DNA of 64,000 bases from Clostridium sp. AM33-3 (GTDB lineage Bacteria > Bacillota > Clostridia > Lachnospirales > Lachnospiraceae): NCBI RefSeq assembly GCF_003480315.1, contig NZ_QUIV01000011.1, positions 31,881 to 95,880 of the forward strand. The letters are read 5' to 3'. The position numbers and the translations under genes are program-made. The notes under the pieces are model-generated. The model made no database searches and was not told where the DNA came from. It saw only the letters and a list, made by a program, of their open reading frames with translations. This document shows positions 3,265 through 62,411 of the stretch, piece after piece; the first letter of the stretch is position 1, and every line of letters starts with the position of its first letter.

Positions 3265-3522
3265 AGAGAAAACGACAGTGAAGAGGATTAGTAAGCAGAC
3301 ATTACATCACAGAGAGATGGCTATCTGGTGCAAGGCCGTCATGTCCCTGGAAGCTGAACCGGCCTTGGAGTCCTGCAGTGAACTGCAGCGTAGTTTCCGG
3401 CGTTAACGGAGCATAGAGTGAGCGATTCTGCATCCATTGCAGCGCTAATCAGGGTGGTACCGCCGAATTTATCTGGTCATTCGGTCCCTTGTCAGAAATG
3501 GCAGAGGACCGGATGATTTTTT
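3265..3522 (+). promoter_or_regulatory. T-box riboswitch, proline-specific
   Basis: Leader RNA that senses uncharged tRNA and controls proS by antitermination. The invariant T-box AGGGTGGTACCGCC is at 3451-3464. A terminator stem (about 3477-3489 with 3503-3516) ends in a T-run. Stem I contains the AGAGAGATGG and CTGGTGCAAGGCC segments typical of the class. The bases after a GAA at 3356-3358 read CCG (3359-3361), a proline codon in the expected specifier position, matching the downstream prolyl-tRNA synthetase gene. The specifier assignment is by pattern only. Confidence 0.9.
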
Positions 3523-14034: not shown

Positions 14035-14123
14035 ACAAAGGCTGTGACATGATAGCAATGAAGCGCGAGGTTGCTGCCAAAATGGCAGGTTTTCCGTGGA
14101 GCGAATGTCAAGTTAGGAAACTG

Positions 14124-14232
14124 ACGACAAGTCACTGTACCAATTTAACAGCTGTAGTAAAGAGTAATTGCAGTAACGCAGTGTGTAGTCCGCGCGACAC
14201 ACACGGAGATGTGTACAGTCACCGCTTGTCGT
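14124..14232 (+). ncRNA. Structured leader RNA of the S10 operon
   Basis: Long-range pairing closes a branched domain: ACGACAAG (14124-14131) pairs with CTTGTCGT (14225-14232), and ACTGTAC (14134-14140) with GTACAGT (14213-14219), leaving a small internal loop. Within it GTGTGT/ACACAC segments (14181-14205) can form another helix. The size and place suit an autoregulatory ribosomal-protein leader, as known for S10 operons elsewhere (L4-controlled in enterobacteria). No named family is claimed. Confidence 0.6.
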
Positions 14233-47475: not shown

Positions 47476-47910
47476 ATGAAGAGTTTTATGGCTAGTCCAG
47501 CGACGATTGAGAGAAAATGGTATGTAGTAGATGCTGCCGGATGTACTTTAGGACGTTTGGCTTCAGAAGTAGCAAAAGTATTAAGAGGAAAAAATAAACC
47601 GATCTACACCCCGCACATCGACTGTGGCGATTATGTGATTGTTGTTAATGCAGATCAGATCAAAGTAACCGGTAAAAAGTTAGATCAGAAGATCTACTAT
47701 CATCATTCCGATTACGTAGGTGGTATGAAAGAGACCACTCTGCGTGAAATGATGGCTAAGAAGCCGGAGCGCGTTGTTGAGCTGGCAGTTAAGGGAATGC
47801 TTCCGAAAGGACCTTTAGGAAGAAGCATGATGACCAAGCTTCATGTATATGCAGGACCGGATCATGAGCAGGCAGCTCAGAAGCCGGAAGCTCTGGAAAT
47901 CAAATTCTAA
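47476..47910 (+). CDS. rplM: Ribosomal protein L13
   Basis: A 144-residue early-assembly 50S protein. [33 protein letters not shown] and [19 protein letters not shown] are diagnostic. AGGAGG precedes the ATG. Co-transcribed with rpsI 28 bases downstream. Confidence 0.98.
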
Positions 47911-47938
47911 GGAAAGGTACTGAAAGGAGGAAGTTATC

Positions 47939-48328
47939 ATGGCAAATAAATATTACGGAACAGGTAGAAGAAAAAAATCTATCGCAAGAGTATATCTGGT
48001 ACCGGGTACCGGTAAAATCACCATCAACAAGAGAGACATCGACGAGTATCTTGGTCTTGAGACCTTAAAGGTAGTTGTTCGTCAGCCGTTAGTAGCAACC
48101 GAGACCGTTGACAAGTTCGATGTTCTGGTTAACGTTCGCGGCGGCGGTTTCACCGGCCAGGCTGGTGCAATCCGTCACGGTATCTCCAGAGCACTGCTTC
48201 AGGCAGACGCTGAGTTCAGACCGGTTCTGAAGAAAGCAGGCTTCCTGACCAGAGATCCGCGTATGAAAGAGAGAAAGAAATACGGCCTCAAAGCCGCTCG
48301 TCGCGCACCTCAGTTCAGCAAGCGATAA
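47939..48328 (+). CDS. rpsI: Ribosomal protein S9
   Basis: A 129-residue 30S protein whose C-terminal tail reaches the P-site t[22 protein letters not shown] and the tail [16 protein letters not shown] are diagnostic. AAAGGAGG precedes the ATG. It is the last core gene before the accessory region. Confidence 0.98.
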
Positions 48329-48762: not shown

Positions 48763-49023
48763 ATGGACTATGCACAGGCATCTCCATCCCTGTCGCAGGC
48801 ACAGCGGTTGAAAAAGCTCTCGCAGGAGGGCGGCTGCACCTTGGATGCCATGTGTGAAGTGATGAATGAAATAAAAAAGGATGAGCTTGACCATGTGACG
48901 ATTAAAAATGAGGTTCTTCGGAAGTATTTTCCGAAATCCTATACGCCGAAGCAGATGCAGGACACGATTATCCGGCTGCTGGAAAAGTGGCAGCGAAGTA
49001 AACAACGAGATATGGAACGATGA
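48763..49023 (+). pseudogene. ParB/RepB-like partition protein, C-terminal remnant
   Basis: An 86-residue reading frame that looks like the end of the ParB-type nucleoid-partition proteins carried by Tn1549-like conjugative elements (SLSQAQRLKKLSQEG, KYFPKSYTPKQMQDTIIRLL). The nuclease/HTH parts that should precede are absent, with an in-frame stop four codons upstream. An AGGAGG-like site sits before the ATG, so a short product is possible. Assignment is from family memory. Confidence 0.6.
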
Positions 49024-49036
49024 GAAGGAGATTTTT

Positions 49037-49479
49037 ATGATGTTGAACTTTAAGAAGAATCAGAACAACGCAGTGTGTAGCATGGACTGTAAGAACTGCC
49101 GAACGGTGCCTCGCAGCCGAATCCGATGGATGATCCCAAGTTTGAAAAGTCCATTGCGATGGTGATCCTGCCGGGGGATGGCGTCGAACTTCTGACCGAG
49201 GCTGGCAGTCGAGATATCTTTGAGGATGTTTACGATGAGATGGAGGCTGACCTGGTGGCAGATGGGGAACTGCTTCTCCATTATGATAAGAGCGATGTGA
49301 TCGAGACTGATAGAACCCGCTATCTGCTGGGAGCTGCGGAAGTTTCGGAAATCGACCAGAACGGCAACGAGTGCAGCATCAATCTGTTTACGCTGGAACG
49401 CACCATCGACTATGTGAACGAAAACCTGACGGTGGTTTCCATTGGCGGCGAGTTGGTTCCGGCACTGCGCCTGATCTAA
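49037..49479 (+). pseudogene. Conjugative-element accessory protein, frameshifted
   Basis: Starts well (GAAGGAG site, ATG at 49037) with NFKKNQNNAVCSMDCKNC, then loses frame near 49101 and reads on in another frame as NGASQPNPMDDPKFEKSIAM and about 110 further residues ending at 49479. One missing base after the CKNC codons restores a single product of about 147 residues. Proteins of this kind are part of the Tn1549-like gene block; function unknown. Confidence 0.65.
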
Positions 49480-49483
49480 GGAG

Positions 49484-50209
49484 GTGCCTATAAAGAAATT
49501 TGATGTGGAGATTACAGAGACTCTCCAGAGAAAGGTTTCCGTGGAAGCTGCCTCACAGGAAGACGCGGAACGCATGGTGACGCAGGCGTGGAACAATCAG
49601 GATTATGTTCTGGATTCCGGCGATTTCACCGGTGTGGACTTCAAGACCGTGGGAGAACATGAACTGGCAGAGACCAGGACGATGGATGTGCTGCTGGTAC
49701 AGCCCAATGCTTACCCGAAGAAAATCAGTGTTGGCACGGAGCTGGAAGATTTGCAGGCAATGGTCGGTGGTGATATTGAAGTCACCTATCCGTTTGAGGA
49801 TAATGTGGCCATTATTCTGAATGAATCTGGCAAAATAAATGGACTGCTCCTGAACCGTGCGATTTACACCGAAGATGGGGATATGTGGGACATTTATGCC
49901 GGTGATTTTCTGGTGGTTGGGCTGACAGAGGATGACTTTGGTTCTCTGACTTCGGAGCAGATGCAGAAATTTGAGGAACAGTTCCATCAGCCCCAGATGT
50001 TCGTTCGCATGGGACGCAGCATCATGGCGATTCAGGTTCCGGATGACATGGTGAAGAAGATGGAGGAAAAGGCTGCAAAGCCCCAGGAAAAGAGTAAACC
50101 GGCACCATCAGGCGAAGGTAGCTCAGAAAACAGCGCAGCTGCCGATTGGGAAGCAAAGTATCAAAGAACTGATCGGTCAGAATCAGGGAGTCAGCAGTAT
50201 CCCCATTGA
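49484..50209 (+). pseudogene. DpnD/PcfM-like plus DUF3846 protein, start and end damaged
   Basis: Residues 4-55 match the DpnD/PcfM family (KKFDVEITETLQRKVSVEAA) and about 70-165 match DUF3846 (MDVLLVQPNAYPKKISVG to WDIYAGDFLVVGL), both typical of Tn1549-like elements. The expected ATG is ATA at 49490, seven bases after AAGGAGG; the only other start, GTG at 49484, lies inside that site. After residue 210 the frame runs into PcfB coding sequence out of register and stops at 50209. Domain calls are by recognition, not search. Confidence 0.65.
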
Positions 50210-51738: not shown

Positions 51739-51916
51739 ATGAATAAGATGGCAAAAGTCACCGCAATGGTGTGAAAATAGATTTTGGCTGTTTCCATAAG
51801 GAGTAGATCGAGAGGCGTTATCCTCAGTGGCTGAAAATACAGATGTGTGATGCTTGCAGCAAGCTATTTGTATAAGCCGAAAGGCCGCAGAAATGCGGCT
51901 TTTCCTAAATACGTGA

Positions 51917-51968
51917 GTTAGCCGAAACTAACTTGTCAATGCGCGCGTGCTGGTTAGATGAATCTAAC
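51917..51968 (+). promoter_or_regulatory. Paired GTTAG-N6-CTAAC operators at the cluster promoter
   Basis: GTTAG-CCGAAA-CTAAC at 51917-51932 and GTTAG-ATGAAT-CTAAC at 51953-51968 (extended to GGTTAGAT/ATCTAACC). A weak promoter TTGTCA (51933-51938), 16-bp spacer, TAGATG (51955-51960) fits exactly between and over them. A third copy lies at 58099-58114. The half-sites resemble DtxR-family boxes. Confidence 0.65.
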
Positions 51969-51987
51969 CGCAAAAGGAGAGACAGCA

Positions 51988-52602
51988 ATGCGAGAACACA
52001 AGAATTTCTGGGACAGAAATGCAGGTCTGTATGACTGCTTTATGCGAAAAGACAGGGCAGTATACGAGAAAATGTATGAGCTGATCCGTCCGGTCGTGAA
52101 AGACAAAACAGTGCTGGAGGTGGCTACCGGAACGGGACTGATCGCCAAGCACATCGTAAAAGCAGCGGCACACATCGAGGCGACGGACGCCTCCGTGGAG
52201 ATGATCGCCGAGGCAAAGCGGGATAATCAATCTGCAAAGCTGCACTTTTCGGTGCAGGATATGTTCCGCCTGCCCTATGCAGACAAGTCCTTCGACGTGG
52301 TGATCGTGTCCAACGCGCTGCACATCGTGCCGCAGCCGGAGAAAGCCCTTGCCGAGATTCATCGGGTGCTGAAGGACGATGGCGTACTCATCGCGCCGAC
52401 CTTCACCCACGCGGGGAACTCGTTTTCCGGCAAGGTCAGGGCATTTTTCATGAAGCTGGCGGGCTTCCCTCTCCACAGAAAGTGGACGAGCGAGGAATAC
52501 TTGCGCTTCCTGCGGCAAAACGGCTGGGCGGTGCGGAAAAGCGTTGTTCTGAAAGCCTCATTCCCGCTGACCTATGCCGAGTGTGAGAAAACGGAGGTGT
52601 GA
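51988..52602 (+). CDS. Class I SAM-dependent methyltransferase
   Basis: A 204-residue Rossmann methyltransferase of the UbiE/Methyltransf_11 type. SAM motif I is TVLEVATGTGLIAKHIV, motif II region DMFRLPYADKSFDVVIVSNA, and the LAEIHRVLKDDGVLIAPTF segment closes the fold. ATG at 51988 follows AAAGGAGA; the ATG at 51958 lies inside the operator. First gene of the cluster; substrate unknown, and the short C-terminus suggests a small hydrophobic acceptor. Confidence 0.88.
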   Translation: MREHKNFWDRNAGLYDCFMRKDRAVYEKMYELIRPVVKDKTVLEVATGTGLIAKHIVKAAAHIEATDASVEMIAEAKRDNQSAKLHFSVQDMFRLPYADKSFDVVIVSNALHIVPQPEKALAEIHRVLKDDGVLIAPTFTHAGNSFSGKVRAFFMKLAGFPLHRKWTSEEYLRFLRQNGWAVRKSVVLKASFPLTYAECEKTEV

Positions 52603-52603
52603 T

Positions 52604-53209
52604 ATGTCATTCTTTGAAAACACCCGCAAGCCTGTGGGGCTTGGCGGGAAAATTATGGTTGCTATGATGAATCTGGGACACAGTCCCGTGGCGCGGTGGG
52701 GGCTTCGCTTTTTAGAGCTTGCGCCGGATGCCAGAGTGCTGGATTGCGGCTGCGGAGGAGGCGCCAATATCAAAAGGCTGCTGAAAAAATGCCCGCAAGG
52801 CATCGTCAGGGGTGTGGATTATTCTGCTGTCAGCGTAGAGAAAGCCCGGAATTTAAACCGGACTGCTATTCAGAAAGGGCGCTGTGCGGTGTGGTAGGGC
52901 AGCGTGGAACACATCATCTTTGCAAAGGATTGGTTTGATGCGGTTACCGCGTTTGAAACGGTCTACTTCTGGTCGGATTTGCCACGGTGCCTTCGGGAAG
53001 TCCGGCGGGTGTTGAAGCCCGGCGGGACCTTTCTCATCTGCAACGAAAGCAACGGTGACACGGACAAGGACGAAAAGTGGACGGAGATCATCGGCGGCAT
53101 GACCATCTACAAAGATATTGAATTAAAGGCGTATCTGGAGCAGGCAGGCTTTCACGATGTACAGATACACAAAAAGAAAAGTTGGCTCTGCATCACGGCG
53201 CGAAAATGA
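52604..53209 (+). pseudogene. Class I SAM methyltransferase with an in-frame TAG
   Basis: SAM motif I is RVLDCGCGGGANIKRLL. At 52895-52897 a TAG interrupts the frame (GRCAVW stop GSVEHI); the same frame continues to 53209 with FDAVTAFETVYFWSDLPRCL and RRVLKPGGTFLICNES. A single CAG-to-TAG change explains it, since a Gln fits the family there. Starts at ATG 52604 behind ACGGAGG, one base after the first methyltransferase. Without readthrough the product lacks half the fold. Confidence 0.8.
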
Positions 53210-53220
53210 GGAGATCAAGC

Positions 53221-54126
53221 ATGAGCATTTTTGCATCCATCCTGCACATGGCTTATAAGCTCTCCGGCGCGAAAAAGGCGTTCGCTTTGCCGGAGGATGC
53301 GCTGCAAAAGGAAATCGAAAAGCAGAACCGGCACCGCGGCATTTTTACGCCCACCGACCGCAAGGCGTATTATGAAACAATTACAGTGAACGGCTTTCCC
53401 TGTCTGATCGTGCGAGAGCGTCCGAAACCGTCCAAGCGTGCTATTCTCTATTTCTTCGGCGGCGGCATGGTGATCGGCCCCGATAAGGGCGACCTGCCTG
53501 TGATGCGCAAGCTCTGCCGCGAGACCGGCTGTGATGTGTGGTTTCCGTTTTACCCGCTCTGCATGGAACACTGCATTACTGAAACATACGCGATGGTGTA
53601 CGAATGTTATCGAAAAATGATTGCACTGTACGGCGGCGGAAATGTCAGTACTTGCGGCTTTTCCTCCGGCGGTGCGCTGGCGCTGGGCATTGCGGCGCAC
53701 AATAACGCGCAGCCCGAACCGCTGCCGCAGCCGAGGCACATCGTCGCCGTATCCCCCGGTGAGGTGCCGTGGAACGATGCGGAAAAGGCGCGGATGCAGG
53801 CGCTCAATGAATGGGACATCTCCATCGACTATGCCTTTATAGTGACAGTGAAAAAATTCATGCGGCACGGCTGCGAGAATGTGCCGGACTATATGCTCTC
53901 CGGCTCCCGGGGAGATTTTACCGGCGTAGGCGATATCCACTTCTTCTATTCTGCCGATGAAGTACTCTACGGCGCACTGCCGGACTTCGAGGAAGCCTGC
54001 AAACGGGCGAATGTCCCATATACGGTGTCTGCCCGCCCGAAGATGGTGCATTGCTACTGTATGCTGCCGATCTTCAAGGAGGCAAAAGAGGACTTTGCGA
54101 AAATCGTGGAGATTTTGGAGAAATGA
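53221..54126 (+). CDS. Alpha/beta hydrolase (HSL-like esterase)
   Basis: A 301-residue serine hydrolase. The oxyanion motif is FFGGGMVIGPDKGDLP, the nucleophile elbow GFSSGGALALG, and the catalytic His probably in KMVHCYCM near the end, with an Asp region before it. ATG at 53221 follows GAGGAGA, just after the methyltransferase stop. Its own stop overlaps an ATG (ATGA at 54123-54126) that was probably the start of the next methyltransferase. Confidence 0.85.
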   Translation: MSIFASILHMAYKLSGAKKAFALPEDALQKEIEKQNRHRGIFTPTDRKAYYETITVNGFPCLIVRERPKPSKRAILYFFGGGMVIGPDKGDLPVMRKLCRETGCDVWFPFYPLCMEHCITETYAMVYECYRKMIALYGGGNVSTCGFSSGGALALGIAAHNNAQPEPLPQPRHIVAVSPGEVPWNDAEKARMQALNEWDISIDYAFIVTVKKFMRHGCENVPDYMLSGSRGDFTGVGDIHFFYSADEVLYGALPDFEEACKRANVPYTVSARPKMVHCYCMLPIFKEAKEDFAKIVEILEK

Positions 54127-54769
54127 GGCCGGAAACAATTTTTATGACGGCATGATCACCTGCTCTACCCTGAGTGGGAAAGCGGTGTGCCGTTTGGTGT
54201 GGGCAATGAACAAGGCAGAAAACGACGATTATCTGGAAAAAGCGCTGTCTGGGATTCCGGAGAATTTCTCCGGTAAGCTGCTGGAAGTGCCGGTGGGAAC
54301 CGGCATTCTGACCATGCCGGTTTATCAGACTATGCCGGAGGCAGACATCACTTGCCTCGATTACTCGGCGGATATGATGGGGCAGGCACAGGAAAAGGCG
54401 GAGCACCTGCGTCTGAAAAATGTAACCTTCCGGCAGGGCGATGTGGGGGCACTTCCCTATGCAGACGATACCTTTGACATCGTTTTGTCGCTGAACGGCT
54501 TTCACGCTTTCCCGGACAAGGAGGCCGCCTATCGGGAGCTTTTCCGGGTCTTGAGACCCGGCGGGACATTCTGCGGCTGCTTTTATGTGATGGGCGAGCA
54601 CAAGCGGACGGACTGGTTCGTCCGGCGCGTCTATGAAAAGACGGGGTTCTTCACACCGCCCTATGAGACGGCGTTCAGCTTGAAAAAACGGCTGGGGAAA
54701 CTGTACGAAGCCGTAACACTTGGAACCGTGAAGAGCATGGCATGGTTCGTCTGCCGGAAAGCAGAATGA
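54123..54769 (+). pseudogene. Class I SAM methyltransferase, frameshifted at the start
   Basis: The body reads from about 54134 to 54769: NNFYDGMITC, motif I KLLEVPVGTGILTMPVYQ, ITCLDYSADMMGQAQEKA, GDVGALPYADDTFDIVLSLN, and RVLRPGGTFCGCF. The expected ATG at 54123, overlapping the hydrolase stop, is in another frame; one extra A in the GGAAAC run at 54131-54136 would join them as MRPENNFYDG. ATG at 54152 has no ribosome binding site but could give a shorter protein of 205 residues. Confidence 0.75.
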
Positions 54770-54954
54770 AGAGAACAGGGATGGTTTTACAAACGATTCT
54801 GGAGGGCCTTGGACTGGGGCGTTGCTGGCGCTTGTCTGCGCTGTGGGCATCTGCAAAGGGGCTGTTGGGGTGGTGCATCTTTATAGCCCGGCGGTGCAGC
54901 AGCGGTGCTGGCGGTCCTTATGACGGCTTTTATTCACTGAGGAAAGGAGAGACA
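54770..54954. other. Remnant between methyltransferase and hydrolase genes
   Basis: No intact gene. One frame reads LALVCAVGICKGAVGVVHLY before a stop at about 54921, which looks like the end of a membrane or transferase protein that I cannot name. It ends in an AAAGGAGAG site for the next gene. Confidence 0.4.
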
Positions 54955-55743
54955 ATGAAGTTTAAGACATTGGGAAATCGGAATGCTCCCGCTGTTTTGT
55001 TTTTTCACGCAATGGGCGTGACGGGGGAGAGCAGCGAACCGGTTGCAAACTATTTACAGGATAGATATTTCTGTATTCTGCCTACTTCCACGGTGTACTG
55101 CAAAGGGCAGAAATATGTCAGCAAGGCAGACGAGGTTCGTCAGGTGGAAGCATATCTGAAATCGCAGGGAGTGGAACGCCTTGAACTGGTTGTGGCTTCC
55201 TCAATCGGTGCCGACCTTGCCATGGCTTTTTTAACAGGCACGAAGCTGCCCATCGGACACGTTTTCTTTGACGGCGGGCAGTTTGCGCAAATCGCAAAAG
55301 GAACGCGCCGCGTTATGACGCCGTTTTTGTATTTCGCTATCAAGAGCCTGTATTGGTCAAAGGGCGGTACACTGAAAAAGATTTTGTGGTGTGACGATGA
55401 CTCCATAAAGCCGTATTTTATAGCCGCAGGCGAAAATCTGACCTATACAAATCTGCGGCGACAGATTCTGGACAGCCTGGAGGATAAACCCTTTCCGTCA
55501 CTTTCCAAAGAAATGCAAAGGCATATCTATTTCGAGTTTGGCAGCATAGAAGACCATTTCAAATACCGTCAGATCGTGATGGAAGCCTACCCCTGCGGCA
55601 ATTACCCCGTGTTTGAGGGGAATGATCATATGCAATATCAGATTCGTGATCCGCAAGGCTTTGCTGAAATGCTGACATATATCGCTGCGTATGACGGTAT
55701 GCCGAAGCTCCCGTTTATCAGAAAGTATGAGGACCCGATATGA
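54955..55743 (+). CDS. Alpha/beta hydrolase
   Basis: A 262-residue hydrolase. The N-terminal strand and oxyanion region are APAVLFFHAMGVTGESSEP. The elbow VVASSIGADLAMAFL carries the likely serine (S-x-G in SSIGAD), and the final His is in FEGNDHMQYQIRDP. ATG at 54955 follows GGAAAGGAGAG. It overlaps the next methyltransferase by four bases. Confidence 0.82.
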   Translation: MKFKTLGNRNAPAVLFFHAMGVTGESSEPVANYLQDRYFCILPTSTVYCKGQKYVSKADEVRQVEAYLKSQGVERLELVVASSIGADLAMAFLTGTKLPIGHVFFDGGQFAQIAKGTRRVMTPFLYFAIKSLYWSKGGTLKKILWCDDDSIKPYFIAAGENLTYTNLRRQILDSLEDKPFPSLSKEMQRHIYFEFGSIEDHFKYRQIVMEAYPCGNYPVFEGNDHMQYQIRDPQGFAEMLTYIAAYDGMPKLPFIRKYEDPI

Positions 55744-56582
55744 AATACAGGATTGAGAAAAACACCGTGCAGGAGACGTTAATTCTTCCGCTGTATTCCC
55801 GGAAGCTGTGCACAGAGCTGTATCCGAACCTTTACCGGGACGAAACAGCGGTGTGCCTGATCGATGAAATCGACTACGACTTTTCGGAGGCAGAGAAAAA
55901 TTCTCGCAGCCTGATGCAGCGTTTCGGTGCGCTGGAGGTCGCCATGCGGCAGAATGACCTTGCGTGGGAGGTACGGAATTATCTGAAAACCCATCCCAGC
56001 GCAGCGGTGGTCAACCTCGGCTGCGGTCTGGATAACATCGGTAGAGCCTGCGACAATGGCAGATGCAAGATCTACAATCTGGATTTCCCGGATGTGATCG
56101 CCTTGCGGCAGCAGCTGCTGCCTGCCGGGGAGCGGGAGCAAAACATCCCCTGTGACCTAAAAGACCCCGCATGGTTTGACAAGATCGATGCTTCTGGCGG
56201 GGCGGTGTTCTTTGCCTCCGGGGTGTTCTATTACTTTCTGACGGAGCAGGTCAGGGCGCTGGTGCAGGGGATGGCGAATGCCTTTCCCGGCGGGGTGCTG
56301 GTCTTTGATGCCGCCAACCGGACGGCAGTGAAGATGATTGCAAAAACGTGGCTCAGGACTGCAAAAATCAAGGATGTGGGCGCGTATTTCGCGGTTTCCG
56401 ACGCGGAAAGGGAGCTTTCTCCATGGGACAGCCGTTTGCAAGTATCCAGGATGGGCTATATGCTGGGGTACAACGATTTGAAAGACCCTTCCGTCAGCGG
56501 CTTTTTCCGATTTCTCGCCAAGGTTGGGGACAACGGGATGAAAATGCAGATCGTAAAGATTGGATTTGGAGACAAGCTATGA
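55740..56582 (+). CDS. Leucine carboxyl methyltransferase family (PPM1/Tcmp-type) protein
   Basis: A 280-residue SAM methyltransferase. SAVVNLGCGLDNIGRACDNG is the family motif I; then NLDFPDVIALRQQLLP, and the late FFASGVFYYF segment. Bacterial members methylate carboxylates or hydroxyls of small molecules, including polyketide-like products. The ATG overlaps the hydrolase stop (ATGA), and its own stop overlaps the next start, so four genes are tightly coupled. Confidence 0.85.
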   Translation: MKYRIEKNTVQETLILPLYSRKLCTELYPNLYRDETAVCLIDEIDYDFSEAEKNSRSLMQRFGALEVAMRQNDLAWEVRNYLKTHPSAAVVNLGCGLDNIGRACDNGRCKIYNLDFPDVIALRQQLLPAGEREQNIPCDLKDPAWFDKIDASGGAVFFASGVFYYFLTEQVRALVQGMANAFPGGVLVFDAANRTAVKMIAKTWLRTAKIKDVGAYFAVSDAERELSPWDSRLQVSRMGYMLGYNDLKDPSVSGFFRFLAKVGDNGMKMQIVKIGFGDKL

Positions 56583-57034
56583 AAATTCTGGTATATGGTG
56601 CAGGCGTTCTGGGGTGCAATCTGGCAAGAAATCTGCTGCGCGCCGGAAAGGATGTCACTCTGCTTGCGCGGGGAAAACGGGCTGCGGAGATCAAGCAGAA
56701 CGGCCTGCGGATCAAGGACAAATTTTCGCTCCGCACCTCGGTCAGCCGTATTCCGGTGGTGACTGAACTTGCACCGGATGCAATGTACGATGTGATCTTT
56801 GTGGTCCTGCGCTATACACAGCTGGATTCCGCTCTGGACACGCTGCGGGCGAATCGGACGAAGAACATCGTTTTTGTGGGGAACAATGTGCAGGCGAGGG
56901 TGCTGGCGGCGGCGCTGCCGGGGAAGATGGATGCAGAGATCCGCACGGTTCCGGGCGGTCATGAGGGCTTCATTGTTCAGGCGGAACGGTATCTTGATTT
57001 GATGGAAACATTTTTGCAGAGAAATGAAATTTGA
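56579..57034 (+). pseudogene. Ketopantoate-reductase-like Rossmann protein, truncated
   Basis: A 151-residue product against about 300 for the ApbA/PanE family. The NAD(P)-binding start ILVYGAGVLGCNLARNLLRA and YDVIFVVLRYTQLDSAL, then FVGNNVQ, are intact. After LAAALPGK the sequence jumps to a tail (MDAEIRTVPGGHEGFIVQAE) that skips the catalytic C-terminal domain, so an internal deletion is likely. It could still bind NADPH. The start overlaps the preceding stop. Confidence 0.65.
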
Positions 57035-57085
57035 CAGTTCACGTCTGCGAATCAGTAAGAAAAAGCGAATCTTCAGGAAAAGAGA

Positions 57086-58042
57086 ATGGCTATGTATAAA
57101 TCACTTTTTGATCTTTCCCCGGAGCAAACTGCTTCCACGGCGATGCCCCGCACCGTCGTGTTCTCCAACGGAACGGGGAGCGGGAGTATGACCATCTGTC
57201 CACTGTTTTCGGGGGCAGAACTGTACTACAACGATATGCATCTTGTTTCCTTTGACGAGGCTCCCGCACCAGCGCGGAATGTGATCGAGATCAACCACTG
57301 CCGCGTGGGGCGTTACGAGTGCAGTTTTGGGGAAAATAGCTGCTGCTATCTGGCAGCAGGGGATTTTGCGGTGTGTGCAGCAGCGCGCAAGAAATCCTCC
57401 TCCTGCTTCCCATTGCGGCACTATCACGGCATTACCATTCTGCTGGATCTGGATGCGATCTCGCCGGAAATGCGGAGCCAGATGGAATGGTATGGCGTGA
57501 ATCTGAACGCTATCCGGCAGTATATCTGCACAGAGAACCGCTGCTGCATCCTTCGGTCTGCGCCTGTGGTTGCACATGTTTTTTCCGAGTTGTATACAGC
57601 TCACGCTGTGCCGGACACCGGCTATATGAGGTTGAAAGTACTGGAGCTGCTGCACGTTCTGAGCCGCCTGAAAGGCCGGGATGATGTGCAGCAGACAGAC
57701 TACTTCAATCAGCATCAGGTGGAATGTGCCAGACGCGCGGCAAAACTTCTCACACAGAAACTGACCGTCCATCAAACCATTGAACAGCTTGCGCAGGATG
57801 TTGGACTTTCGGCTACAGCACTCAAGAGCTGCTTCAAAGGCGTTTACGGCAGCTCGGTCTATGCATATCAGAAGAAATACCGCTTGCAGATGGCACAGAA
57901 GCTGCTGACCGAAACGGACAGCACTATTGCAGAAATTGCACACCAGATCGGCTACGAAAATCCAAACAAGTTTTCTTCCGCGTTTCGCCAGTCTCTTGGT
58001 ATGACCCCGACGCAATATCGGAAGATGCGTCCGATTGGATAG
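57086..58042 (+). CDS. AraC family transcriptional regulator
   Basis: A 318-residue regulator. The N-terminal part (1-200) is a sensor domain with several Cys and a DFAVCAAARKK stretch; the C-terminal double helix-turn-helix (about 215-318) shows IEQLAQDVGLSATALKSCFK and IAEIAHQIGYENPNKFSSAF. The general layout is like the PchR/YbtA regulators next to siderophore transporters. It lies between the methyltransferase genes and the ABC transporter pair, in the same direction, and is likely their activator. Confidence 0.9.
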   Translation: MAMYKSLFDLSPEQTASTAMPRTVVFSNGTGSGSMTICPLFSGAELYYNDMHLVSFDEAPAPARNVIEINHCRVGRYECSFGENSCCYLAAGDFAVCAAARKKSSSCFPLRHYHGITILLDLDAISPEMRSQMEWYGVNLNAIRQYICTENRCCILRSAPVVAHVFSELYTAHAVPDTGYMRLKVLELLHVLSRLKGRDDVQQTDYFNQHQVECARRAAKLLTQKLTVHQTIEQLAQDVGLSATALKSCFKGVYGSSVYAYQKKYRLQMAQKLLTETDSTIAEIAHQIGYENPNKFSSAFRQSLGMTPTQYRKMRPIG

Positions 58043-58060
58043 ATTTTGTCTGTTTGGTTC

Positions 58061-58114
58061 TTGTAAAAAACGGCCTGTTCCAGTAAAATCTGTTTGTGGT
58101 TAGCGAATGCTAAT
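58061..58114 (+). promoter_or_regulatory. Promoter and operator of the lipocalin-ABC unit
   Basis: TTGTAA (58061-58066), 17-bp spacer, TAAAAT (58084-58089). The dyad GTTAG-CGAATG-CTAAT (58099-58114) covers the expected transcription start, matching the two operators at 51917-51968. Confidence 0.65.
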
Positions 58115-58150
58115 TACAAAATCAAACGATTTTTCTGGAGGGGATTTTCC

Positions 58151-58827
58151 ATGCGTATGATGAAAAAAGTTCTGGGTACGGTGACCGTACTGGCTCTGTT
58201 GTTTCCGAAACGACATCCGCAGCGGCGGATGAAAACGTAGCTGCCATTGCACAGTTACTGAACGACTTGACAGGCAGCTATCAGGAGCTGTGGCCGGTAA
58301 TTTTGGCAGACGAATATCAGCAGACATGGCTGGACGACTGTACCGCCCTTGTGGGAGAGGAAAATGCGGAAGCTGCCTTTGAAAAGCTCTCTTCAATGGT
58401 TACGGGCGATGTCTACGGCGAGGATGCCGTCGAGGCCTATGCAAACGGCGGCGATGCCTACTTCTGCGACCTTGCGACCCTGACCTTTGACGGCGAAACT
58501 TCCACCATTTCTGGTACCGATAAGGATGGCAATGAGCTGTTCTCCCATACCTATCACTACATTGGCATGGAGCCTGTGCGTGGACTGTATGAGTTTGAAA
58601 GTGATGATGCCGATTCCGGCGAGTTTACCTATTTTTTCCTCGCGCCAGACACCAGTGCGGAAACCTACCACATTGAGTTTCGCTATGGTTCGGATGCAGA
58701 TGCTCTGAGTCAGTATGATGCAGGCGATTATGCTTACTGGCTGGCATCTGGCATTTCTACGGATTGCGACCAGACTATGATAGACAACTGCATTGAGCTG
58801 TTCTGTACTGAAAATCTAGCAGGTTAA
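58151..58827 (+). pseudogene. ZinT/lipocalin-like secreted protein, frameshifted in the signal region
   Basis: ATG at 58151 starts a signal peptide (RMMKKVLGTVTVLALL) that leaves frame near 58199. The next frame continues VSETTSAAADENVAAIAQLL to a stop at 58827, about 205 residues. The mature part (SYQELWPVILADEYQQTWLD; YFFLAPDTSAETYHIEFRYG) resembles the ZinT/YodA metal-binding lipocalin fold by pattern, although no His cluster is seen. The lost stretch probably held a lipobox. Family call is tentative. Confidence 0.55.
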
Positions 58828-58901
58828 TACGCAGAATGTGCTGTGGAGCAAAAACGCCACGGCACATTTTGGCATAAAAATTATTTGAAGGAGGTCTTTC
58901 C

Positions 58902-60671
58902 GTGAAAAAACAGTCCGATCTTTCCCGGCTGATGGGCTATGCCGGGAACTACCGAGCCTTTACCTACGCTTCATGGGTGCTGTCTGCGGTCAGTGCGCTG
59001 GTGGCACTGGTGCCCTTCGTATACATCTGGAAAATCCTGCGGGATGTGCTGAACGCCGCGCCGGACTATGCGCAGGCGGTGAACATCCCCCATTACGGCT
59101 GGATGGCAGTGCTGTTTGCAGTGCTGTCCTACCTCATTTACATTGCGGCGCTGATGTGCTCTCATCTGTCAGCGTTCCGGGTGGCGACCAATCTGCGGCT
59201 GGCGGTGTCGGAGCATCTGGCGGTGCTGCCGCTGGGCTTTGCCGAAACTTTTGGCAGCGGCAAGCTGCGCAAGATCATCCACGAAAGCACCGGAGCCGCC
59301 GAGACCTATCTTGCCCACCAGCTGCCCGATCAGTATAACGCCATCGCAACCCCGGTGGGGCTGCTGGTTTTGCTGCTGGCATTCGACTGGCGGCTGGGGC
59401 TGCTGAGCCTTGCGCCGGTGGTGCTGGCGTTTCTCATCATGGCAACCATGATCGGCAAGCAGATGGCTGAAAAAATGCGGCAGTACGGCAACGCTTTGGA
59501 ATCCATGTCCAACGAGGCCGTGGAGTACGTCCGGGGCATCCCGGTGGTCAAGACCTTCGGGCAGTCGGTCTTTTCCTTCAAAAAGTTCAAGGCCACCATT
59601 GACGAATACGAAAAGTGGGTCATCTCCTACACCAAAGACCTGCGCCTGCCCATGATGTTCTACACCGCCGCCGTCAACGGCGTGTTCGCCTTTTTGATCG
59701 CGGGCGGACTGCTGTTCACGGCACACGGTGTCACGCCGGAATTCCTGCTGAACCTGCTGTTCTATATCATCATTACGCCGGTGATCTCCCTGACTCTGAC
59801 CCGTATGATGTATATGAGCGAGAGCAAGATGGTGGTAGCGGATGCGCTGGCACGCATCAACTCGGTGCTGGAGGCGGTGCCCATGCAGGTGCAGGCTGTT
59901 CCGCAGCACCCGAAGGATTCCTCTGTCACGTTGCAGGATGTGCATTTCAGCTACGACGGAAAAACCGAGGTCATCAAGGGCGTTTCGCTGGAGATTCAGC
60001 CGGGACAGACCGTGGCTTTTGTAGGTTCCTCCGGCGGCGGCAAATCCACGCTGGCAAACATTGTCTGCCGGTTCTTTGATGTGCAGAGCGGCAGCGTCCG
60101 GGTGGGCGGAGCGGATGTGCGGGCTATCCCCAAGGAAGAGTTGATGGATACCATCTCCTTTGTGTTCCAGAACAGCCGTCTGCTCAAGGGCAGCATTCTG
60201 GATAACGTCCGTCTGGGCAGATCGCAGGCCACCGAGGCTGAGGTACTGGCAGCGTTGAAGGCGGCGCAGTGCATGGATATTGTGGAGAAATTTCCGGCGG
60301 GCATCCATATGGTCATCGGCACCAAAGGCGTGTATCTTTCCGGCGGCGAGCAGCAGCGCATCGCCATTGCTCGTGCCATGCTGAAAAATGCGCCCGTCCT
60401 GATCCTGGACGAGGCCACCGCTTTTGCTGACCCGGACAATGAAGCAAAAGTGCAGGCCGCTTTTGCCCAGCTTGCCAAGGGCAAAACGGTGCTGATGATC
60501 GCACACCGCCTGTCCACCGTCGCCAACGCCGACTGCATCCATGTGGTGCAGGATGGGCAGATTGTGGAATCCGGCACAAAGGATGAGCTGTGCGCACAGA
60601 ACGGCTTGTTTGCTCGGATGTGGCAGGATTATCAGGCTTCGGTGCAGTGGAAGGTCGCAAAGGAGGGGTAA
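58902..60671 (+). CDS. ABC transporter, fused permease/ATPase (YbtP-like half)
   Basis: A 589-residue half transporter. Six membrane segments (residues 1-310), then the ATPase with Walker A VGSSGGGKSTLAN, Q-loop FVFQNSRLL, signature LSGGEQQRIAIARAM, Walker B VLILDEATAFADPDN and the H-loop. GTG start at 58902 behind GAAGGAGG. The AFADPDN variant of the D-loop region is as in YbtP/YbtQ and IrtA/B, siderophore-related ABC proteins. It pairs with the next gene. Confidence 0.9.
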   Translation: MKKQSDLSRLMGYAGNYRAFTYASWVLSAVSALVALVPFVYIWKILRDVLNAAPDYAQAVNIPHYGWMAVLFAVLSYLIYIAALMCSHLSAFRVATNLRLAVSEHLAVLPLGFAETFGSGKLRKIIHESTGAAETYLAHQLPDQYNAIATPVGLLVLLLAFDWRLGLLSLAPVVLAFLIMATMIGKQMAEKMRQYGNALESMSNEAVEYVRGIPVVKTFGQSVFSFKKFKATIDEYEKWVISYTKDLRLPMMFYTAAVNGVFAFLIAGGLLFTAHGVTPEFLLNLLFYIIITPVISLTLTRMMYMSESKMVVADALARINSVLEAVPMQVQAVPQHPKDSSVTLQDVHFSYDGKTEVIKGVSLEIQPGQTVAFVGSSGGGKSTLANIVCRFFDVQSGSVRVGGADVRAIPKEELMDTISFVFQNSRLLKGSILDNVRLGRSQATEAEVLAALKAAQCMDIVEKFPAGIHMVIGTKGVYLSGGEQQRIAIARAMLKNAPVLILDEATAFADPDNEAKVQAAFAQLAKGKTVLMIAHRLSTVANADCIHVVQDGQIVESGTKDELCAQNGLFARMWQDYQASVQWKVAKEG

Positions 60672-60674
60672 GGA

Positions 60675-62411
60675 ATGATCGGAAAAATTCAACACGCCAC
60701 AGCCAGCTCCCCGGAGGGCGCAAAGGGGCTTGTAAAGGGCGTTCTGGCCTGTGCGTTCCAGAACATGGCGTTCATGCTGCCCACCGGGCTGCTGTATCTT
60801 CTGGTAAAAGACTTGCTGGCAGGCTCCACGAGCGGGAGAAGCACCTTCTATCTGCTGGGGTGCGTTGCCTGCTTTGCACTGATTTTACTGACCACATGGT
60901 TCCAGTACAACGGCACCTATTTTACCACCTATAAAGAGAGCGGCACCCGCCGCCTGACCCTTGCGGAGCGGCTGCGGAAGCTGCCCCTGTCCTATTTTGG
61001 CAAGCGCGACCTTGCCGACCTGACAAGCACCATCATGGCGGACTGCGAGGTGTTGGAAAAGGACTGCTCCCACTTCATTCCCGGTCTGTTCGGTTCCCTC
61101 ATTTCCACGGTGCTCATTGCCCTGAGCCTGTTTGCCTTTGAGTGGCGGATGGCACTGGCGGCACTGTGGGTCATCCCGGTATCTGTTGCCATCGTGGTGG
61201 GCAGCTACTGGGTGCAGGACAAGGTGCAGGTCAGGACCATGGCGGCGAAAATGGCCTGTGCGGACGGCATTCAGGAGTATATCGAGACCCTCCGCGACCT
61301 GAAAGCCAGCAATGCGGAGCAACGTTATCTGTTCGGCCTTTCCGACAAAATTCGGGCAGTGGAAAAGCAGTCCATCGTGGCAGAACTGACGACAGCGCTG
61401 TTCGTGTCCTCTGCGGGTATGGTGCTCAAGCTGGGCATTGCGTCGGTGGCGCTCACCGGCTCAGTGCTGCTGGTGCAGGGCAGCATCGACGTACTGACCC
61501 TGTTTCTGTTCCTGATGGCGGCATCCCGGATGTACGACCCCATGCAGGGCGCTTTGCAGAATCTGGCGGCGGTCATCGCCATGCGCACCAATGTGGGGCG
61601 GATGAATGAGATTCTGGACGCTCCCCTGCAGACCGGCAGCGAGCAGCTGACCAATCAGGGCTGCGATATCGTGTTCGACCATGTGGGCTTTGCCTATAAC
61701 TCCGGCGAGACGGTTCTGCGGGACGTTTCTTTTACCGCAAAGCAGGGGGAGGTTACGGCACTGGTGGGCCCCTCCGGCGGCGGCAAGACCACCGTTTCCC
61801 GGCTGGCAGCACGGTTCTGGGATTACCAGAAGGGTCGTATCACCGTGGGTGGCATGGATGTTTCCCAAATCGACCCGGAAAAACTGATGAGCCTGTATTC
61901 CATCGTCTTTCAGGATGTGACACTATTTGACAACACGATCCTCGAAAACATCCGTCTGGGACGCAAGGGGGCCACCGACGAGGAGGTCCTTGCGGCGGCA
62001 AAGCTGGCAAACTGCGAGGAATTTGCCGAGAAGCTGCCGGACAAGTGGAACACCAACATCGGCGAGAATGGCTGCGCTCTTTCCGGCGGCGAGCGTCAGC
62101 GCATTTCCATCGCCCGTGCTTTTCTGAAGGATGCGCCTATCATCCTGCTGGACGAGGCCACAGCCAGTTTGGATGTGGAAAACGAAACTGCTATTCAGGA
62201 AGCACTGTCACGACTTATCAAGGATAAAACGGTTCTCATTATTGCTCACCGAATGCGCACTGTTTCCAGTGCAGATAAGATTGTGGTGCTCAAAGATGGA
62301 GCAGTAGCAGAACAGGGATCGCCTGCACAGTTGCTGCATAAGGGCGGCATTTTTGCCCACATGGTACAGCTCCAGACTAAGAGCCAAGGATGGTCGTTGG
62401 TTAAGGCATAA
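60675..62411 (+). CDS. ABC transporter, fused permease/ATPase (YbtQ-like half)
   Basis: A 578-residue half transporter. Six membrane segments, then Walker A VGPSGGGKTTVS, Q-loop FQDVTLFDNTILENIRLGR, signature LSGGERQRISIARAF, Walker B IILLDEATASLD. Start three bases after the preceding stop, so the two form a heterodimer. Orientation of transport cannot be read from sequence: related pairs act in siderophore import or in peptide and drug export. Confidence 0.9.
   Translation: MIGKIQHATASSPEGAKGLVKGVLACAFQNMAFMLPTGLLYLLVKDLLAGSTSGRSTFYLLGCVACFALILLTTWFQYNGTYFTTYKESGTRRLTLAERLRKLPLSYFGKRDLADLTSTIMADCEVLEKDCSHFIPGLFGSLISTVLIALSLFAFEWRMALAALWVIPVSVAIVVGSYWVQDKVQVRTMAAKMACADGIQEYIETLRDLKASNAEQRYLFGLSDKIRAVEKQSIVAELTTALFVSSAGMVLKLGIASVALTGSVLLVQGSIDVLTLFLFLMAASRMYDPMQGALQNLAAVIAMRTNVGRMNEILDAPLQTGSEQLTNQGCDIVFDHVGFAYNSGETVLRDVSFTAKQGEVTALVGPSGGGKTTVSRLAARFWDYQKGRITVGGMDVSQIDPEKLMSLYSIVFQDVTLFDNTILENIRLGRKGATDEEVLAAAKLANCEEFAEKLPDKWNTNIGENGCALSGGERQRISIARAFLKDAPIILLDEATASLDVENETAIQEALSRLIKDKTVLIIAHRMRTVSSADKIVVLKDGAVAEQGSPAQLLHKGGIFAHMVQLQTKSQGWSLVKA

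Follow-up and report, generated by a model that had tools for sequence, protein, structure and literature searches.

What might a run of S-adenosylmethionine (SAM)-dependent methyltransferases, hydrolases and a paired ATP-binding cassette (ABC) transporter accomplish under one shared operator? The question is raised by 51.8-62.4 kb of a 64,000-nucleotide stretch of Clostridium sp. AM33-3 (Lachnospiraceae; contig NZ_QUIV01000011.1, positions 31,881 to 95,880), referred to throughout as the window, where scans with Pfam and NCBIfam profiles find two gene runs, both on the + strand. With a probability of roughly one in two, we read this cluster as a mobile cassette for iron starvation, present here in decayed form, that would serve the uptake and processing of a metallophore. 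Judged by sequence, it is two joined modules with separate histories, namely a methyltransferase/hydrolase operon and an operon comprising an AraC regulator, a lipoprotein and a YbtPQ-like transporter. The original prediction, made from the DNA letters of the window, had seen one single system here, a view that the separate histories of the two halves do not bear out.

The strongest single result, which ties the cluster to a repressor class that has been tested, is the identity of its candidate operator dyad, GTTAG-N6-CTAAC, with the core of the published EqbA operator. EqbA is the DtxR-like repressor of the equibactin element ICESe2; it lacks an SH3 domain and has Asn at the Met10 place, its operator palindrome is centred on GTTAGATGTATCTAAC, and its binding depends on the palindrome and responds to Fe2+, Zn2+ and Mn2+ (excerpted text of PMC3672683, the form in which this source is used throughout). 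In the window, the exact dyad lies at 51917 and 51953, before the first operon, and a form with a final T at 58099, before the second, as had been predicted for both operons; these five strand-matches at three places compare with 0.10 expected. When two mismatches are allowed, 16 dyads are found against 16.25 expected, which is chance level, and therefore only near-exact sites count. Since the dyad equals the EqbA operator core and marks iron genes in carrier genomes, the control by a DtxR-type metal repressor proposed by the original prediction is supported, and DtxR/EqbA-type iron control appears highly probable.

The extended form RGTTAG-N6-CTAACY occurs 13, 19, 2, 7, 7, 6 and 18 times in seven carrier genomes, against 0, 2, 0, 0, 0, 1 and 0 for the reversed control. 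The fetched regions contain 78 sites that match the core exactly, and 63 of these adjoin a match to a seed family, these families having been chosen from the same regions as the dyads. The neighbors are methyltransferase or leucine carboxyl methyltransferase-like (LCM) genes (16), ATPases of the energy-coupling factor (ECF) type (15, partly cross-matches of ABC halves), DUF3793 (10), ABC halves (10), Trep_Strep ECF S-components (8), FeoA (6), DtxR (5), DUF2325 (4), ZIP (3), FecCD (2), FeoB (2), and flavodoxin, HMA and lipoprotein genes (one each). Pfam names ten representatives of these neighbors, and PF04023 identifies the FeoA genes, which provide the independent test: within 140 bp upstream of all PF04023 FeoA genes (17 operons), an exact dyad is present in 6 cases and one with at most one mismatch in 9, while 2000 rounds of shuffling yield means of 0.0005 and 0.05 and maxima of 1 and 2, respectively. 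Promoters with at most one mismatch are found in six of the seven genomes, the exception being G003. One of them, with one mismatch, belongs to G004, a congener of Faecalibacterium duncaniae, in which ferrous sulfate represses feoB of the feoAABC operon (excerpted text of PMC10781979).

Among the commonest dyad targets is a DUF3793 gene with a flavodoxin-like gene behind it (L098, L099, L106, L107, L109, L124 and L127), and a role of DUF3793 in iron starvation is possible. Genes for Trep_Strep ECF-type S-components also stand repeatedly behind the dyad (eight sites; L100, L102, L110, L126, L132, L134 and L135), which suggests that gut Clostridia import iron complexes through ECF transporters. 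At L033 (9.9-14.4 kb; L120 for the L038 genome), a lone LCM gene stands after a double dyad and is followed by genes that look by eye like a CsoR-like repressor and a copper ATPase. An enolase-like gene, also named by eye, is preceded by a dyad in two genomes (L119, L123), either by chance or as a real target.

Candidate readers of the dyad are encoded beside it. Genes of the dtxR family adjoin dyads in G001, G002 (two) and G005, and in the last genome the dyad lies between dtxR and feoAAB. Four of the products, read as whole open reading frames, are short (121-133 amino acids), and that of L099 contains both Fe_dep_repress domains. Residues were counted in five products read in frame, the dtxR-like genes of L140 and L143 being set aside: the motif ACRIEH is present in all five, and its Cys aligns, in L099, with the metal-ligand Cys of DtxR, which we take to be Cys102, just as we take the Met of interest to be Met10.

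The candidate operators and the two operons are arranged in the window as follows.

51780..51876 (end approximate), + strand: 3' remnant of a tetR-family gene, from a nucleotide match to the tetR end of L001
51917..51932, no strand: DtxR/EqbA-type candidate operator dyad 1, GTTAG-N6-CTAAC, 55 bases before the MT1 start codon
51953..51968, no strand: candidate operator dyad 2, GTTAG-N6-CTAAC, 19 bases before the MT1 start codon (51988)
51988..52602, + strand: MT1, UbiE-like class I methyltransferase, intact (Methyltransf_11, E 4.6e-24)
52604..53209, + strand: MT2, methyltransferase with an in-frame stop; intact copies in relatives
53221..54126, + strand: alpha/beta hydrolase (Abhydrolase_3), intact (PF07859, E 8.4e-14)
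54152..54769, + strand: MT3, methyltransferase whose 5' end is lost by comparison with L030 (Methyltransf_25, E 9.4e-23)
54781..54908, + strand: remnant of a gene for a 164-amino-acid membrane protein, from the nucleotide map
54955..55743, + strand: second alpha/beta hydrolase, intact (no Pfam match; profile match to 4rpc, a solved alpha/beta hydrolase, E 5.7e-6)
55740..56582, + strand: LCM-family methyltransferase, intact (PF04072, 36.8 bits, cut-off 22.3)
56579..57034, + strand: ketopantoate-reductase-like (ApbA/PanE-like) gene, truncated (PF02558, E 5.9e-17)
57086..58042, + strand: AraC-family regulator, intact (HTH_18, E 9.1e-23)
58061..58089, + strand: promoter-like site TTGTAA-17-TAAAAT just before dyad 3, weak (11 such sites in the region versus 7.3 in shuffles)
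58099..58114, no strand: candidate operator dyad 3, GTTAG-N6-CTAAT, 36 bases before the lipoprotein start at 58151
58151..58827, + strand: secreted lipoprotein gene with a broken signal-peptide frame; a ZinT-like fold is possible
58902..60671, + strand: ABC1, YbtP/IrtA-like ABC half-transporter, intact
60675..62411, + strand: ABC2, YbtQ-like ABC half-transporter, intact

Everything that had been listed for the cluster is present on the + strand (four SAM methyltransferases, two alpha/beta hydrolases, an ApbA/PanE-like gene, an AraC regulator, a secreted-protein gene and two ABC halves), yet MT2, MT3, the ApbA-like gene and the secreted-protein gene are damaged rather than whole. The profile scans assign all four methyltransferases to class I. 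The gene overlaps noted earlier are present as well and measure four bases each, at 55740-55743 (second hydrolase and LCM) and 56579-56582 (LCM and ApbA-like gene). The LCM protein belongs to its family by a PF04072 score above the cut-off together with a fold match of its model. Upstream of the cluster stand rplM-rpsI-like genes (47557-48328) and then mobile-element-like genes (48763-50209), all named by eye. A scan of 10 proteins for defence sets returned no complete set, only partial matches to common methyltransferase, ABC-ATPase and metallo-hydrolase domains (mad2, mad3, mad8, AriA, LmuA). Elsewhere in the window, ordinary leaders occur: a T-box at 3269-3492 and an S10-Clostridia ribosomal leader at 14050-14130.

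The window copy is a decayed version of the cassette, more complete copies of which are found in other genomes; Gemmiger formicilis ATCC 27749, for example, has a fuller methyltransferase operon. Seven of its 11 genes are intact (MT1, both hydrolases, LCM, AraC, ABC1 and ABC2). Compared with L001, L002, L030, L035 and L041, it retains only the end of tetR, a gene that is whole in L001, L030 (with TetR_N), L031, L034, L035 and L075, and its MT3 is cut short at the 5' end. Genes for a metallo-hydrolase and an ATC-hydrolase-like protein, which in L001, L002 and L030 stand before the gene of the 164-amino-acid membrane protein, have been deleted, and the membrane-protein gene itself is mostly gone. 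The ApbA-like gene keeps its first ~116 codons and has lost its C-terminal part, the match to L041 stopping at 56927, and the signal-peptide frame of the lipoprotein is broken by comparison with P0006. L030 illustrates a fuller order: TetR, MT1, MT2, hydrolase, MT3, metallo-hydrolase, ATC_hydrolase (PF14196), membrane protein, second hydrolase and LCM, followed by a BAAT_C hydrolase, two more PF14196 proteins, DUF6796 and another methyltransferase.

Relatives of the cluster were gathered as the best 80 of 90 relatives of the LCM protein among genome contigs, picked by LCM similarity; many are near-identical Collinsella loci, so that locus counts do not equal independent events. Identity of the LCM protein is 96-97% in Gemmiger, 90-93% in most Faecalibacterium (60% in two), 85-88% in Collinsella and other Coriobacteria, 82% in both Blautia luti and a metagenome-assembled genome (MAG) of Sphaerochaeta, and 56% in a Treponema MAG, and further Oscillospiraceae and Lachnospiraceae are included. 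These 80 loci hold 138 dyads with one end base free, against 4 in one Markov resample, and the exact dyad is present in 73 of them. MT1, MT2 and LCM recur together, which agrees with the expectation that the genes co-occur in other genomes; the dyad lies at most 130 bp upstream of MT1 in 41 of 43 loci and precedes an ABC1-like gene in 14 of 23.

The distribution does not follow the hosts. SecY of the window, compared with that of 12 carrier genomes, is 63-68% identical in six (two Lachnospiraceae, Mordavella, Ruminococcus turbiniformis, Blautia luti and Hominifimenecus), a result that puts the window within or close to Lachnospiraceae. Two Gemmiger, two Faecalibacterium, one Collinsella and Oscillospiraceae MH27-2 combine a SecY identity of 42-46% with an LCM identity of 84-97%, and the cassette has therefore been transferred between hosts. 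In the family to which G004 (Faecalibacterium) belongs, 148 genomes were compared, of which 18 contain any match and six an LCM relative of at least 55% identity. A Gemmiger cluster (L002, one of the 80 loci) also lies after rplM-rpsI-like genes, which together with the position in the window hints at an element inserting beside rpsI; an exact direct repeat of the end of the rpsI-like gene was looked for and not found.

The second module has its own history. The block of AraC, dyad, lipoprotein and ABC1 is present in 11 of 31 Faecalibacterium-genus genomes and in Blautia luti, a count that leaves out a 13th relative, L154, in which a 36-residue lipoprotein piece was matched and the dyad was not found. 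In the 12 loci, the dyad takes the same place as dyad 3 of the window, with no mismatch in one and one mismatch in eleven, seven of the Faecalibacterium-genus loci carrying one and the same dyad. These seven represent a second allele (AraC 34-35% and lipoprotein 43-44% identical to the window), and the four others are near-identical to the window (83-86% and 92-93%, respectively); ABC1 is 87-96% identical over the 473-474 residues seen in Faecalibacterium. Divergent AraC/lipoprotein alleles beside a conserved ABC1 make the block a mosaic. ABC2 falls beyond the end of these short loci; L041 and L008 show it next in order. Within the Blautia luti family, 2 of 200 genomes match the lipoprotein, one of them by 36 residues only, and the window copy is therefore unusual for that family. 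Homologues of the lipoprotein number 990 matches in the protein collection, the 120 listed including two clusters of 4273 and 3922 members. Likeness to ZinT/YodA was sought without a Pfam match or a PDB sequence match, and hhalign returned a probability of 0.6 of 100 with a shallow profile.

For the transporter, an exporter had been suggested, whereas both halves match subunits of an importer. Among the half-transporters within the best 60 of 578 sequences, ABC1 scores highest with the YbtP chain 6p6i_A (320.6 bits), ahead of IrtA (312.5), YbtQ (246.5) and MsbA (227.6); within the best 60 of 592, ABC2 scores highest with YbtQ (294.3), ahead of Sav1866 (256.3) and 6p6i_A (255.5). The chain 6p6i_A and YbtQ have entry 8vsi in common, on which ground 6p6i_A is read as YbtP. 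Full-length eukaryotic transporters outscore the half-transporters, matching in two stretches. YbtPQ and IrtAB are siderophore importers (PMC3672683; PDB names), and import by the window pair seems likely on the strength of these matches.

As the original prediction had stated, the cluster proteins scanned list no match to a non-ribosomal peptide synthetase (NRPS), an NRPS-independent siderophore (NIS) synthetase or another recognised synthase. The carriers are similarly poor: IucA/IucC occurs in none of the 16 genomes examined, and NRPS condensation domains are present in three and missing from 13. The ligand is therefore probably made by other gut microbes, favoring capture and processing of foreign siderophores as the putative role. 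The predicted link to metal acquisition fits these mostly synthase-free carriers and the iron genes marked by the dyad.

A mechanism can be proposed along these lines. When iron is plentiful, a short EqbA-type repressor of the DtxR family, encoded elsewhere, would bind the GTTAG-N6-CTAAC dyads and block both operons, which would open upon iron shortage. Family membership and operon order suggest that the AraC-type activator probably senses the ligand, that the surface lipoprotein would capture a metal or metal complex and that the YbtPQ-like heterodimer would import the complex. The hydrolases and methyltransferases might then cleave and alkylate the imported metallophore, setting the iron free and leaving a spent ligand unable to chelate. 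We infer the iron response in this host, the import, the foreign origin of the siderophore and its processing by hydrolysis and methylation; for the step in which the methyltransferase/hydrolase module would act on the imported metallophore, the odds look about even.

Known systems resemble parts of the cassette. The equibactin locus eqbA-N of ICESe2 in Streptococcus equi shares the operator core, a short DtxR-type repressor without SH3, a YbtPQ-like pair (EqbKL), an alpha/beta hydrolase and carriage on a mobile element; it has an NRPS and a salicylate ligase, both lacking from the window cassette, and the excerpts make no mention of a four-methyltransferase module, TetR or AraC for it (PMC3672683). 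The yersiniabactin importer YbtPQ is alike in that, among half-transporters in the best 60 rows, each ABC half is closest to the corresponding Ybt subunit, and in that an AraC gene adjoins the ABC genes in the window. The AraC regulator YbtA likewise accompanies YbtPQ. Unlike that system, the window cassette has a Gram-positive host, a surface lipoprotein and a DtxR-type operator, with no biosynthesis genes seen in the cluster. DtxR/IdeR regulons have counterparts among the dyad neighbors (feoA, feoB, fecCD, dtxR itself and DUF3793-flavodoxin), although the half-sites of the window-type dyad stand six bases apart and those of the classical DtxR box are closely packed. The LCM protein is 13-16% identical to PPM1/LCMT-1 and ML2640 of the leucine carboxyl methyltransferase family, and it is not taken as a protein methyltransferase. 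Among the entries listed in a literature search by titles and abstract openings, none gives an account of the cassette or of the dyad in gut bacteria, the operator being met in PMC3672683 alone.

Several observations weigh against an iron-starvation cassette for metallophore uptake and processing. Eight of the 17 feoA promoters lack the dyad even with one mismatch, including both feoA operons of the Coriobacteria genome G003, so that the repressor match in that host is unproven, and 15 of the 78 core dyads adjoin no seed family, in spite of the seeds being drawn from those same regions. At the Met10 place, two of the five dtxR products have Met, two have Asp and one has Asn, and the L099 protein obtains nearly equal scores with DtxR and MntR (52.3 versus 52.2 bits). 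In S. equi, import does not require EqbKL, a pair that may export (PMC3672683). Most Collinsella loci retain no more than three of the window genes, MT1, MT2 and LCM, and LCM occurs with both ABC halves in one fetched stretch in 22 of 80 loci (18 of the 46 loci of at least 20 kb).

These observations lend some weight to other explanations. The frequent separation of the methyltransferase module from a nearby ABC pair would suit an operon for the detoxification of a xenobiotic or antibiotic, controlled by a TetR sensor of its own, the iron dyad merely adding iron control; the TetR of L030 has matches in nine of 80 loci, seven of them just before MT1, and hydrolases and methyltransferases are common detoxifiers. 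Yet no dyad lies within 130 bp of the start of any of these nine tetR matches, so that TetR is an unlikely reader of the dyad, which is moreover shared with feoA, DUF3793-flavodoxin and dtxR genes and kept across phyla; we regard detoxification as rather unlikely. Possible export by EqbKL (PMC3672683) would agree with a small metallophore of the cell's own, built in a nicotianamine- or opine-like manner by the SAM enzymes and the ApbA-like reductase without NRPS or NIS, and exported or re-imported by the ABC pair. The iron-type operator, the several SAM enzymes beside a reductase and the mostly synthase-free carriers point the same way, but the matches listed for the scanned proteins include no family that joins amino acids, transfers aminobutyrate or acts as an opine dehydrogenase, the LCM model resembles carboxyl methyltransferases, hydrolases are numerous, and the three genes kept by most Collinsella loci would make little of a pathway. 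Such self-made metallophores are an unlikely explanation.

The metal itself might differ, with a zinc or manganese repressor reading the operator and the cassette serving either metal. ZIP-family genes beside three dyads, a possibly ZinT-like lipoprotein, the equal DtxR and MntR scores of the L099 repressor and the response of EqbA binding to Zn2+ and Mn2+ (PMC3672683) would accord with this, but feoA, feoB, fecCD and DUF3793-flavodoxin as targets and the DtxR-type Cys ligand of the local repressors make it improbable. That the genes are mere passengers of a mobile element, thrown together by transfer without a joint function, would fit the mosaic and damaged window copy with its two joined modules; the conservation of gene order and dyad between unrelated hosts renders it extremely improbable. 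Within the preferred reading of an iron-starvation cassette, a more specific proposal is mobile 'siderophore demolition' in non-producing commensals, in which a stolen siderophore would give up its iron inside the cell through hydrolysis and through SAM-dependent methyl-capping of the groups that chelate it, rather than through reduction alone, the LCM-type enzyme esterifying carboxylates; this proposal is speculative and, as it stands, quite unlikely.

Competition for iron shapes the gut community, and to our knowledge little has been established about iron acquisition by Faecalibacterium, Gemmiger and Collinsella beyond FeoB. The analysis points to a cassette common to several phyla under one operator, and the dyad provides a searchable signature by which the question becomes directly testable. 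The same dyad also singles out a set of candidate iron genes in strict anaerobes.

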